Source: Veillonella parvula
GTDB lineage: Bacteria > Bacillota > Negativicutes > Veillonellales > Veillonellaceae
NCBI RefSeq assembly: GCF_036456085.1
Contig: NZ_CP138632.1
Location: 2,027,001 to 2,091,000, forward strand
Direction of reading: 5' to 3'
DNA length: 64,000 bases
A program made the translations under genes and the position numbers. Below are positions 11,694 to 45,736 of this stretch, one piece after another. Positions within the stretch are counted from its first letter, which is position 1, and each line of letters opens with the position of its first letter. The notes under the pieces are model-generated. The model worked only from the letters and a program-made list of their open reading frames with translations. It searched no databases and was not told the DNA's origin.

Positions 11694-11764
11694 ATACCTC
11701 AGTACATATTTTATTTTGTACTGATTCTGCCGTATATCATAGAAAGGAATTCCAAATTCGTAAA

Positions 11765-11908
11765 GGCGAATAGCGCAAGTACCCGCGAAGGCAGTCGTTA
11801 GGGTAGACGAGGTGAAGAGTGATCGAGTCATCAGCGGATGCTCTTCCGGCATATTCATGTCGTAACAGGTATTAAAAAGCCCATCGGTAACGATGGGGAC
11901 AAAGTATA
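11765..11908 (+). ncRNA. glmS ribozyme (glucosamine-6-phosphate riboswitch)
   Basis: The sequence shows the ribozyme core in order: the cleavage site A/GCGC (cut expected between 11772 and 11773), GACGAGG, ATCGAG, AGCGGATGCTCTTCCGG (matching the family's GGCGGATGCCTCCCGG stretch), then the P4 hairpin CCCATCG-GTAA-CGATGGG and GGACAAAG. Bound glucosamine-6-phosphate triggers self-cleavage, which lowers glmS mRNA. The position 125 bases before glmS, on the same strand, fits. Confidence 0.9.
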
Positions 11909-11948
11909 TCTGAATGAATTGTATTGAACTAATATTTAATACATTAAA

Positions 11949-26480: not shown

Positions 26481-26508
26481 AAAAAGCCGAGCTCACAGGA
26501 ACTCGGCT
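26481..26508 (-). terminator. Regulatory terminator of cytX leader
   Basis: On the minus strand AGCCGAG and CTCGGCT pair, followed by TTTTTCT. It lies between the TPP aptamer and the cytX start, so TPP binding should favour termination. Confidence 0.85.
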
Positions 26509-26522
26509 ATTAATCCTCTATG

Positions 26523-26602
26523 TTCCCTACGTTGGCATTATCCAAATCAGGTTATGGGTTAAAGCATTAGCTTACTCTCAGCCCACTCTTGTGAGCACCC
26601 CG
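26523..26602 (-). ncRNA. TPP riboswitch (THI box) of cytX
   Basis: The minus strand carries the aptamer hallmarks GGGGTGC, GGGCTGAGAGT, ACCTGATTTGGATAATGCC and GTAGGGA in order. It is directly followed by the terminator, the layout of transcriptional OFF control. Confidence 0.95.
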
Positions 26603-26612
26603 TTATGGTTTC

Positions 26613-26667: not shown

Positions 26668-26701
26668 GATGTTATAACTAGAGTATAAAAATATATGGCC
26701 A

Positions 26702-26775
26702 CTAGGGGTGCTTTTGCTGAGATTGATCATTCAAAACCCTAGACCTGATCCAGATAATACTGGCGTAGGGAAGTG
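26702..26775 (+). ncRNA. TPP riboswitch (THI box) of thiW-thiD-thiME
   Basis: AGGGGTGC, TTGCTGAGATTGATC, ACCTGATCCAGATAATACTGG and CGTAGGGAAGTGG occur in order. This is the second aptamer, head to head with that of cytX. Confidence 0.95.
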
Positions 26776-26802
26776 GAGTGAAACATAATACTAAATTATT
26801 AC

Positions 26803-42861: not shown

Positions 42862-43200
42862 GATGACTCCTTTTTATAATTAGATTTCTCTATATATAGT
42901 AAATTATATAGAATAATGACGCAAGGATTTTCTATAGAATTTTTTCTTAATCTAAATAGTGTAAATAATTTTAGTATAAAAGATTATAATATGAGGAATT
43001 TATTACTCGTTGATTGTATTAAAGTAGAAATATAGGAAGATAGTATTCGCATAGAATTTGATTTCTTCATTATTTACTCATAAAAAGATCGTTGATATAA
43101 TGAATCTATAATAAAAGCATTAATTTATTATAGATAATACAGGGATAGTGTTAGTAGTTATGTGCAGTGGGGTAAATTGCTATTAAGGGAGGCGTTTATA
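42862..43200. other. 339-base AT-rich gap before nuclease cassette
   Basis: No gene is visible. It holds the dapL promoter region on the left and the cassette promoter (listed) on the right, with a leader of about 95 bases before the nuclease start. Confidence 0.4.
43073..43101 (+). promoter_or_regulatory. Promoter of nuclease / beta-CASP cassette
   Basis: TTTACT (43073-43078), a 17-base spacer and TGATATAAT (TATAAT at 43096-43101) give a good -35 and an extended -10. Confidence 0.7.
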
Positions 43201-44292
43201 ATGTTAAAGTCTAAAGAGGCATATGAATTTATTTGTAAAGGTATTAATCGAAAAGATAAATTTGATGAGTTTGAAACCCTTTTTGGGCAATATAAGAACG
43301 ATACAACAGAAGATACTGTTAATATAAAAAAAGTAAAGCAAAGAGATAACGATGGAGATATAAAAAGATTTGCAGCAAACTTTTATAAGTCATCTATTGT
43401 AAATTACAAAGGCTATGTACAAGGAGCGTCGCAAGCGGACAAAAACCGCTATAGTGAAGTTATTGCCAGTACTCTTTTATCAAAAAATCTTTTAAAGACA
43501 TGGACAGATTTAAAGCCAGTACGATCTAACCATTTTGATACAAATCATTCCCCTTCCGAAATAGTAGATATGAAAAAGCTGCAAGGCACAAATCGTAAAG
43601 AAGAAATTTTAGCGAAATTGTTGTTTTATCAACGTGAGGTTGATGGATTAGGCTATATCTTTGATTATCAAACACCATTAAAGGCGACACAAAATGATTC
43701 TTACGGAAAAATAGATTTATTAGGCTATAACACTGATGACGATTGTTATTCTGTAATTGAATTAAAATATCGTCCATCTGGTAGTGAGGAAACTTTACTA
43801 CGCTGTGTTTTAGAAGCTTATACATATTATAAATTGCTTGATTTAAAACAGATTAAATCCGATGTTGATCACGCTGGCATAAAGGCTCTAAAGAAAGAAT
43901 TACCTAAATATAAGCACACTGATAAGTCTGAATTAGTAATTTTATTTGATGAAAAATCTTGTACAGATGATGATGGTGGGGTAGAGACTAATTTGTTGCT
44001 TCGTATTGATCCAGTGGTAGTGGATAAACCTAACTATCCGTCTAAAACTGTTGTGTCACAACAGTATAAAGAGTGTCAGGAATTAATTAATCCAAGTAAA
44101 AGAAAAAATCTACGAGCTTTATGTGAGGCTATATTAAAACAAGAGTCTAAATTGAAACAAATTCGATTCGTTGTCCTAAGAACAGAAGATATAGATAAAG
44201 CTGTCCCTTTAAAAAATGTGCAAAAGTGGTCTTCAGAATTAGATCGCTCTTATCGAGCAGAAACGTTGCTAACGATTACTGGTAAAGGTTAA
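43201..44292 (+). CDS. Putative PD-(D/E)XK nuclease-like protein
   Basis: 363 aa from the ATG at 43201 (AAGGGAGG upstream). I do not recognise the family. Residues 165-215 fit a restriction-endonuclease-like core: GKIDLLGY (Asp172), SVIELKY (Glu187-x-Lys189), and an ETLLRCVLEAYTYYKLL helix after it; Glu134 or Glu135 could be the motif I acid. The N-terminal 120 residues are charged and Lys-rich, and the C-terminal part has FVVLRTEDIDKAVPL. No membrane segment or signal. The beta-CASP gene starts 2 bases after the stop. A nucleic acid cutting or defence role is inference. Confidence 0.6.
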   Translation: MLKSKEAYEFICKGINRKDKFDEFETLFGQYKNDTTEDTVNIKKVKQRDNDGDIKRFAANFYKSSIVNYKGYVQGASQADKNRYSEVIASTLLSKNLLKTWTDLKPVRSNHFDTNHSPSEIVDMKKLQGTNRKEEILAKLLFYQREVDGLGYIFDYQTPLKATQNDSYGKIDLLGYNTDDDCYSVIELKYRPSGSEETLLRCVLEAYTYYKLLDLKQIKSDVDHAGIKALKKELPKYKHTDKSELVILFDEKSCTDDDGGVETNLLLRIDPVVVDKPNYPSKTVVSQQYKECQELINPSKRKNLRALCEAILKQESKLKQIRFVVLRTEDIDKAVPLKNVQKWSSELDRSYRAETLLTITGKG

Positions 44293-44294
44293 GT

Positions 44295-45470
44295 ATGAAT
44301 GTAGTTATACACCGTGGCACTCATCAGATTGGTGGTAGTGCTATAGAAATTAGTACAGCATCTACTCGCATTATGTTAGATTTTGGTAATGAATTAAGTT
44401 TAGATGAAAAGTACACACCTATAAATCTGGATATAGAAGGCGTTACAAAAGGAAAGCTGGATTGTGACGGTATTGTGATTTCTCATTATCATATGGATCA
44501 CTTAGGCCAACTAACCTCTGCACTATCAGAAATTCCATTATATATGGGTGAATTAAGTAAGGAAATCGCGCTAATAGGTGCTGAGTATCAAGATAGAGGT
44601 TTATACTTGCGCTTATTAGGTGCTAATACATTTCGTGGGGGAGAGGCTTTCACTATTGGTGGTATACGGATTAGGCCTTTGGTTATTGACCATAGTGCCG
44701 CTGATAGTTATATGTTTGTTATTGAGACTGAAGGTAAACACATTTTATATACAGGTGATTTCCGGATGCATGGGCTGCGTCAACATGTATTAGAGAAGTT
44801 AGTTAAGACCTATATAGGTGAGGTTGATGTATTAATTACAGAAGGAACTTCATTATCTAGAGATGCCAATGACCCTATAGCTGAAGTAGCTGTATTAGAT
44901 GATATTTCTTCTTATATTCAAGATGGAAAATATGTTTTTGTTATGTGTTCCTCTACGAATATTGACCGTATTATGGGGATTTGGCAGAATATGCCAACTG
45001 ATAAAGTACTCATTTGTGATGCTTATCAGAAAAGAATATTAGATACTGTGATTAATAATGTATATTATGAAAGTTCTTTGTATCGTAGACATGATAGCCC
45101 ATTAGTTATTGATAAAGGACGGTATCCTAAATACTATATGGAACATGGATTTGTATCCTTAGTAAGAGGGACAGAAAATTTTATTTCTAAAATTAAAGAG
45201 TTCCCTAAAGATGATGTACGTATTATATATTCCATGTGGACAGGATATATTGAGGAGAATTTAGCATTGAAAGAATTGTTAGATACATATCCATCTTATA
45301 TATGTCATGCCAGTGGTCATGTCTCAAAGGACGATTTAGTTCAGTTCATAGAAATGGTTGATCCTGATATTGTTATTCCGGTTCATACTGATATCCCTGA
45401 AAAACTAAAGAGAATACTGCCTAATAGAAATGTTTATGTCGTTAATGATAAAGAGCCATTTATCATATAA
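44295..45470 (+). CDS. Beta-CASP-type metallo-beta-lactamase-fold hydrolase
   Basis: 391 aa. Metal site motifs are intact: SHYHMDHLG (His64, His66, Asp68, His69), IDHSAADSY (His133) and YTGDFR (Asp155). Beta-CASP-like motifs follow: ITEGTS, a HASGHVSKDDL stretch with its His, and VIPVHTD near the C-terminus, an order like that of RNase J and related RNA/DNA nucleases. It is shorter than RNase J (about 550 aa) and lacks its C-terminal domain. It is coupled tightly to the PD-(D/E)XK-like gene, so the two are probably one functional unit. Confidence 0.8.
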   Translation: MNVVIHRGTHQIGGSAIEISTASTRIMLDFGNELSLDEKYTPINLDIEGVTKGKLDCDGIVISHYHMDHLGQLTSALSEIPLYMGELSKEIALIGAEYQDRGLYLRLLGANTFRGGEAFTIGGIRIRPLVIDHSAADSYMFVIETEGKHILYTGDFRMHGLRQHVLEKLVKTYIGEVDVLITEGTSLSRDANDPIAEVAVLDDISSYIQDGKYVFVMCSSTNIDRIMGIWQNMPTDKVLICDAYQKRILDTVINNVYYESSLYRRHDSPLVIDKGRYPKYYMEHGFVSLVRGTENFISKIKEFPKDDVRIIYSMWTGYIEENLALKELLDTYPSYICHASGHVSKDDLVQFIEMVDPDIVIPVHTDIPEKLKRILPNRNVYVVNDKEPFII

Positions 45471-45474
45471 TTCC

Positions 45475-45503
45475 TTTAAGAAATTCTATTTATGTTGTAT
45501 AAT
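45475..45503 (+). promoter_or_regulatory. Probable promoter of structured RNA
   Basis: TATAAT at 45498-45503 with a weak TTTAAG -35 and a 17-base spacer. It starts just after the beta-CASP stop codon. Confidence 0.5.
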
Positions 45504-45509
45504 AAATAA

Positions 45510-45696
45510 AAAGAGAGCCATCAACGTGTGGTAGTGTTAGGCTCATCTTATAAACTGTTTTAAGAGGATTGCCTAGCGTGCGAGTATTTTGAATGCTCTG
45601 TTGCGTTAGGCTTTTATCTTTACACTATTTGAATAGTGCAAAGAGTGATAGTGCTTATAGACCAATTTTTGCGTAGTATTTTACTACGCTTTTTTA
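45510..45696 (+). ncRNA. Candidate structured RNA of unknown class
   Basis: About 187 bases between the beta-CASP gene and an MFS gene fold well by eye. GAGCC/GGCTC closes 45515-45544. A long hairpin at 45571-45611 has a 10-bp stem (with G-U pairs), a 1x3 internal loop and a further 7 bp. CACTAT/ATAGTG lies at 45623-45638, with a second possible ATAGTG partner downstream. GCGTAGTA/TACTACGC plus TTTTTT ends it. It has its own -10 box before it and its own terminator, and the MFS gene has a separate promoter, so it is probably not a leader. I could not match it to 6S, SRP, tmRNA or RNase P. Confidence 0.55.
45671..45696 (+). terminator. Terminator of the structured RNA
   Basis: Perfect 8-bp stem GCGTAGTA/TACTACGC with a TTT loop, then TTTTTTATT. 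Confidence 0.85.
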
Positions 45697-45736
45697 TTGA
45701 AAAAATCAAAACTTTATATAGCATTAATTTTATTTC

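Follow-up and report, generated by a model that had tools for sequence, protein, structure and literature searches.

A beta-CASP metallo-hydrolase of Veillonella parvula is paired with exchangeable PD-(D/E)XK-like proteins in a putative mobile defence module

Two adjacent genes of Veillonella parvula, one coding for a nuclease-like protein (NUC) and the other for a beta-CASP metallo-hydrolase (MBL), are located between dapL, which is read from the reverse strand, and an MFS gene, with rpsF and ssb beyond it. What kind of unit do these genes form, and does the structured RNA downstream belong to it? The locus was analysed in a window of 64,000 nucleotides (G000:C1:2027001-2091000; G and L numbers denote genomes and loci) from a genome that is a single contig of 2.21 Mb. 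An earlier note on this DNA had proposed a cassette for defence or RNA processing, in which one protein, or the RNA, controls the other. Both reading frames, their sizes (363 and 391 aa), the gap of 2 bp between the end of NUC and the start of MBL and the two flanking genes were found as described there. So was the pair's own promoter; it is sigma-70-like with extended TG and is kept in 6/6 pair-bearing Veillonella genomes (Table 1). GGGAGG precedes the ATG of NUC, and the two genes span 2.3 kb. The same locus is carried by Veillonella sp. T11011-6.

Table 1. Features of the NUC-MBL locus, in window positions
Feature	Position	Strand	Remark
Pair promoter (TTTACT-17-TATAAT, extended -10)	43073..43101	+	Conserved in six pair-bearing Veillonella genomes
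NUC, predicted PD-(D/E)XK-fold protein, 363 aa	43201..44292	+	No Pfam, NCBIfam, PADLOC or PHROG family; fold from homolog model
Putative NUC catalytic core: E134, Q157xPL, D172, E187-x-K189, helix LLR..LEAYTY (199-209)	43600..43827	+	Invariant columns
MBL, beta-CASP metallo-hydrolase, 391 aa; D29, H64xH66xDH69, H133, D155, E183, H338, H364	44295..45470	+	
Two-hairpin dispersed genus element	45505..45625	+	Adjoins the module, not a part of it
Intrinsic terminator after the two-hairpin element	45671..45697	+	

The motifs of MBL were compared across the aligned members. Motifs I-IV are conserved in 20 of 20, motif A is E183, motif B (H338) is nearly invariant, and motif C (H364) is again present in 20/20. 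The HxHxDH site, already recognised as intact from the letters, is thus accompanied by every other beta-CASP motif. A His at motif C is the signature of RNA-cutting members. The RMMBL Pfam match of MBL lies above the cut-off, and the nearest large family by profile is RNase J (TIGR00649, E 6e-18), with which MBL shares the MBL and beta-CASP domains and the motif C His. However, MBL scores 64.5 bits against the RNase J cut-off of 400, it has 391 residues as against about 550, and the profile scores separate the two. A longer RNase J-like protein is encoded elsewhere in every genome of the genus (14 genomes). The best PDB sequence match is EF2904 (2az4, 1.7e-16); a gene that looks EF2904-like, though, belongs to an ABC-transporter operon lacking a nuclease and sits on a very long branch of the MBL tree. 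In PADLOC 2.0 no model was matched by MBL, the best hit being a partial and weak one to LmuA (0.0017). As judged from motifs and profiles, these results show MBL to be a near-constant beta-CASP enzyme of a subfamily distinct from RNase J.

NUC proved to be as unrecognised as it had first appeared, since Pfam, NCBIfam, PADLOC and PHROGs gave no family that reached its cut-off or scored convincingly. In Pfam the strongest hint was YhcG_C, a PDDEXK domain (0.036, residues 150-191), and the best PADLOC 2.0 hit was PDC-S02 (0.0047), partial, weak and matching no model. The proposed core, Asp172...Glu187-x-Lys189, is invariant in aligned relatives down to about 30% identity, and E134 and the Q157-x-P-L block can be added to it; these residues provide the D...(D/E)xK motif and the helix acidic residue of the PD-(D/E)XK superfamily. 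Relatives of about 30% identity, from other families of the phylum, also retain LLR..LEAxTY. The AlphaFold model of NUC itself has a mean pLDDT of 62 (core blocks about 70-80), and most of the structures that it resembles are PD-(D/E)XK enzymes: EndoMS with its relative (Z 6.2), HamA (5.3), and also PaqCI, FokI, HindIII and McrC, with acetyl-CoA carboxylase rows at lower Z. A compact homolog from L099 was modelled at pLDDT 87.7. Its best matches are almost all PD-(D/E)XK enzymes, among them XisH (Z 9.6; 122 residues, 3.4 A), EndoMS/NucS (9.5), Upx (8.7), Can2 (8.1) and Card1 (7.6). The alpha-beta-beta-beta-alpha-beta core is present in this model and, with lower confidence, in that of NUC itself; neither model had a significant PDB match by Foldseek alone. 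A structure prediction lacking a nuclease core, which the earlier note had named as the outcome that would speak against its proposal, was therefore not obtained. The PD-(D/E)XK fold of NUC is well supported by these models, and the conserved residues suggest that the protein is catalytic.

Within the genus the pair is all-or-none, both genes being present in 6 of 14 genomes and neither in the other 8, and in all six it is located at the dapL site. The mean dN across these six genomes was 0.235 for NUC and 0.070 for MBL, as compared with 0.014 for dapL and 0.020 for DapDH, and 0.015 for the MFS gene in the five genomes that have it. The pair thus evolves far faster than the neighbouring genes. 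Divergence within NUC is distributed unevenly, with dN of 0.37 in the N-part, 0.12 in the core and 0.25 in the C-part. The dN/dS ratio is below 1 throughout (0.29 for NUC) and therefore does not demonstrate positive selection, which counts against the defence reading preferred below. The NUC alleles of G216 and G213 are mutually closest, whereas in MBL and flanks G216 is nearest to G210 and G211, a discordance suggestive of allele exchange. The Veillonella locus does not qualify as a classic defence island. The pair-less G217 has a gene for a 775-aa type I/IIG-like methylase between an autotransporter and dapL (L050:4202-6526); the dapL neighbourhood therefore hosts alternative defence-type cargo.

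The association of the two genes was followed in a sample of 398 Bacillota genomes. The NUC profile matched eight of them, and in five (G000, G164, G250, G294, G374) MBL adjoins NUC. G142 has a type 1 NUC (the type of the window) without MBL, G288 has a broken NUC with no MBL nearby, and the copy in G365 stops at a contig edge. From the other side the pairing is complete: the MBL subfamily occurs in 9/398 genomes, and a PD-(D/E)XK-like ORF lies beside MBL in 9/9. A second profile gave the same nine followed by a gap, after which came other beta-CASP proteins at no better than 1e-39. Searching the family of G164 and the class of G250 yielded no new subfamily member either. Besides type 1, the partners comprise type 2 (G136, G076) and type 3 (G059, G026), the latter with invariant residues that include RxD, FxExK and QxxxY. 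In G076 a WG-repeat gene separates the type 2 nuclease from MBL, and the MBL is broken.

Among plasmids, 13 records matched MBL and 12 were examined, the thirteenth having the same length and match as one of these. A nuclease-like gene adjoins MBL at eight of the 12 loci: upstream in Cereibacter, two Sphingomonas and Cupriavidus, downstream in Ochrobactrum and Rhizobium phaseoli, as a type 1 relative on a Butyrivibrio plasmid and as an HSDR_N protein on a Thermococcus plasmid. At the remaining four (Prevotella, R. leguminosarum, Methanothermobacter and the EF2904-like record) no nuclease lies beside MBL, and at least two of these relatives, the EF2904-like and the Methanothermobacter ones, look to be outside the MBL subfamily. 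IMG/VR was scanned with wider MBL alignments after the pairing rule had been stated, and 5/5 distinct loci had a nuclease-like neighbour of MBL; two fragments with weak MBL similarity (L142, L143) were left out of this count. At L138, L139, L140 and L141 the nuclease-like ORF terminates on the MBL start, and at L144 (= L145 over the compared region) the nuclease is convergent and downstream of MBL, among phage structural genes. The weakest case is L140, whose partner has E-x-E instead of E-x-K. Viral scans with Veillonella-dominated alignments gave zero matches, whereas the wider alignments did match; a single plasmid MBL as viral-scan query also gave none, nor did tblastn of plasmids and phages with NUC or type 1 homologs.

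The earlier note had allowed that the two genes might never be found together outside close relatives; the counts in Bacillota, plasmids and viral contigs speak otherwise, and the pair was found conserved together on plasmids, on mobile elements and in variable chromosomal sites. The genome comparisons thus show a pair that is present or absent as a unit in Veillonella and occupies mobile or variable sites elsewhere. A motif regex tuned on the known partners recognised 16/22 partners, 0/37 neighbours of the nearest other beta-CASP genes and 3/257 background ORFs, one of which is the lone G142 homolog; this contrast is supportive rather than blind because the regex was tuned after the partners had been seen. 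The calling of partners of types 2, 5 and 6 rests on motifs. By profile searches the partner nucleases are almost all outside Pfam, NCBIfam and PADLOC families. Partners other than NUC gave no or weak PADLOC 2.0 matches, with a weak RM match for the archaeal HSDR_N protein, and SduA_C and HEC-02B matched the viral-contig partners only, weakly.

The MBL tree does not follow the partner types. G136, with a type 2 partner, is sister (100/100) to G374/G294 with type 1, and G026, with type 3, groups with the type 1 bearers Veillonella and Butyrivibrio (98/95). This shows that the nuclease partner has been swapped among at least three sequence groups whose folds are possibly related; since the profile-profile comparison of the types aligned around the catalytic site only, "swap" denotes different sequence groups and no common descent is claimed. 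The stop and start codons of the two genes overlap at many loci. The contexts include conjugative and mobilizable plasmids, Tn3/TniQ genes, serine recombinases and relaxases. WYL regulators above the Pfam cut-off are found at four loci (L122, L124, L125, L140), Eco57I-type RM and DUF262 genes neighbour some pairs, and an HTH regulator lies near the G250 pair. At two unrelated plasmid loci a calcineurin-like metallophosphoesterase gene lies 3' of MBL with overlapping ends (L119:6212-6853, L122:6458-7024), and such an enzyme is possibly a third component of the module. By analogy, these features resemble those of defence modules.

The RNA next to the pair does not share its distribution. Compared with shuffled sequences, the stretch downstream of MBL has the better fold (z = -3.2), and a terminator closes it, so that the structured RNA described in the earlier note stands; it is nevertheless a repeat dispersed through the genus and not specific to the locus. 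The element is retained in G217, which has no pair, and is missing at the dapL site of G218, which has one. A match occurs somewhere in 11/14 genus genomes, many at unlinked sites. The copies (L062-L090) align as an imperfect two-hairpin palindrome of about 120 bp with the core GCCTAACG/CGTTAGGC. In the genome of the window the copy number rests on two BLAST matches because the perfect-core pattern found zero copies there. An Rfam search of the element gave no family. The element is a dispersed intergenic element of the genus lying beside the module, possibly REPIN- or MITE-like or an sRNA family. The idea that this RNA controls the pair or acts in the system is thus not supported. The RNA was rejected as a module component, as it is separable in both directions and has dispersed copies. 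A type III toxin-antitoxin system, with a nuclease and its cognate repeat RNA, was rejected likewise, the element being decoupled and dispersed. A host RNA-processing unit guided or regulated by the adjacent RNA would account for a structured element and terminator directly 3' of the pair; given the same separability and dispersal, it is very improbable.

The reading that we prefer, with somewhat better than even confidence, is that the pair is a horizontally exchanged two-gene module directed against invaders. The sequence context is compatible with a defence function and suggests it. Such a module is probably undescribed as bacterial defence. NUC and MBL would act together, probably as a complex made through coupled translation. 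The fast-changing flanks of NUC would face the invader and its core would cut or nick DNA, while the beta-CASP subunit, with its motif C His, may destroy RNA or trim what its partner exposes. MBL would then be the conserved effector and the PD-(D/E)XK protein the diversified recognition or trigger subunit. More tentatively, and with rather less than even confidence, we propose a new class of bacterial immunity: a single conserved beta-CASP enzyme of the RNA type would be joined with exchangeable PD-(D/E)XK subunits, and these would determine the target specificity.

Alternatively, the pair may serve accessory repair of nucleic acids: damaged DNA or R-loops would be nicked or trimmed by the PD-(D/E)XK protein, and ends or hybrid RNA processed by its beta-CASP partner. 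This would fit the repair nuclease EndoMS/NucS among the best structural matches, the membership of the SNM1/Artemis repair enzymes in the beta-CASP proteins and the metallophosphoesterase genes after MBL at two loci. Yet patchy all-or-none presence, interchangeable partners, plasmid and recombinase contexts and fast divergence are unlike core repair, and the motif C His in every aligned MBL is of the RNA type; we consider repair unlikely. We give no greater weight to a selfish addiction or element-stability module of the toxin-antitoxin kind, with one toxic protein restrained or counteracted by the other. Two adjoining, often overlapping genes, mobile contexts and presence or absence as a unit speak for it, but both proteins have complete catalytic sites, neither is small or antitoxin-like, and G142 has NUC without MBL. 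The addiction reading does not exclude a defence role. Less probable still is that the pair is counter-defence or superinfection cargo of mobile elements and not host immunity. Plasmid copies and copies in viral or provirus contigs, one between phage structural genes, point that way, whereas the Veillonella copies lie between chromosomal housekeeping genes, and having WYL regulators and RM genes as neighbours is more typical of a defence system; the two roles are not cleanly separable because mobile elements carry defence genes too.

The defence reading was compared with described systems. Beta-CASP enzymes have mostly been described as RNases with housekeeping tasks or as repair enzymes, type VII CRISPR being the immune exception. 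If the defence reading is true, bacterial immunity would gain a two-nuclease design in the form of a mobile beta-CASP subfamily with swappable PD-(D/E)XK proteins, and a function would be given to genes annotated 'MBL fold metallo-hydrolase' and 'hypothetical protein'. The core fold of NUC is shared with Hachiman HamA, Shedu SduA, Upx, Can2/Card1, EndoMS/NucS and XisH, several of them immune effectors, but NUC has no sequence-level membership in any of these. CBASS swaps effectors, whereas the design proposed here would swap the trigger subunit. HamM/canu is a 'gated' MBL nuclease with a protease partner, found in Hachiman, AVAST, Lamassu and DRT (PMC12799240). It resembles the present pair in that an MBL-fold nuclease stands beside a partner enzyme and is repeatedly recombined with different systems; there, however, a ComEC-like MBL is joined to a trypsin- or caspase-like protease, and here a beta-CASP MBL, the constant member, to a PD-(D/E)XK protein, with no protease among the neighbours (dapL, NUC, MFS). 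Cas14 of type VII CRISPR is a beta-CASP RNase acting as an immune effector (PMC10910872, PMC12669027), but MBL reaches 22.7 bits where the cut-off is 800, no cas-like gene, Cas5 and Cas7 included, is adjacent, and MBL is too short for the Cas10-like C-terminal domain of Cas14. The NUC-MBL pairing was not found in the literature searched, the main text of freely available papers.

A few further features were seen around the pairs and in the window. In G164 a 642-aa von Willebrand A-domain protein is encoded immediately 3' of the pair (L060:2150-4075). On three rhizobial-type plasmids that have the nuclease downstream or lack it, similar small proteins of 131-158 aa with no known family lie 5' of MBL (L117:5558-5953, L118:4516-4992, L126:4561-5001). 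A CRISPR-like array (L098:10941-12221), in whose translated ORFs FPAYLRGIET is repeated, and the regulator near the G250 pair are about 1.2 kb apart. Elsewhere in the window a glmS ribozyme is present at 11761-11922, and two divergent TPP riboswitches lie about 80 bp apart at 26507-26612 (-) and 26694-26788 (+).
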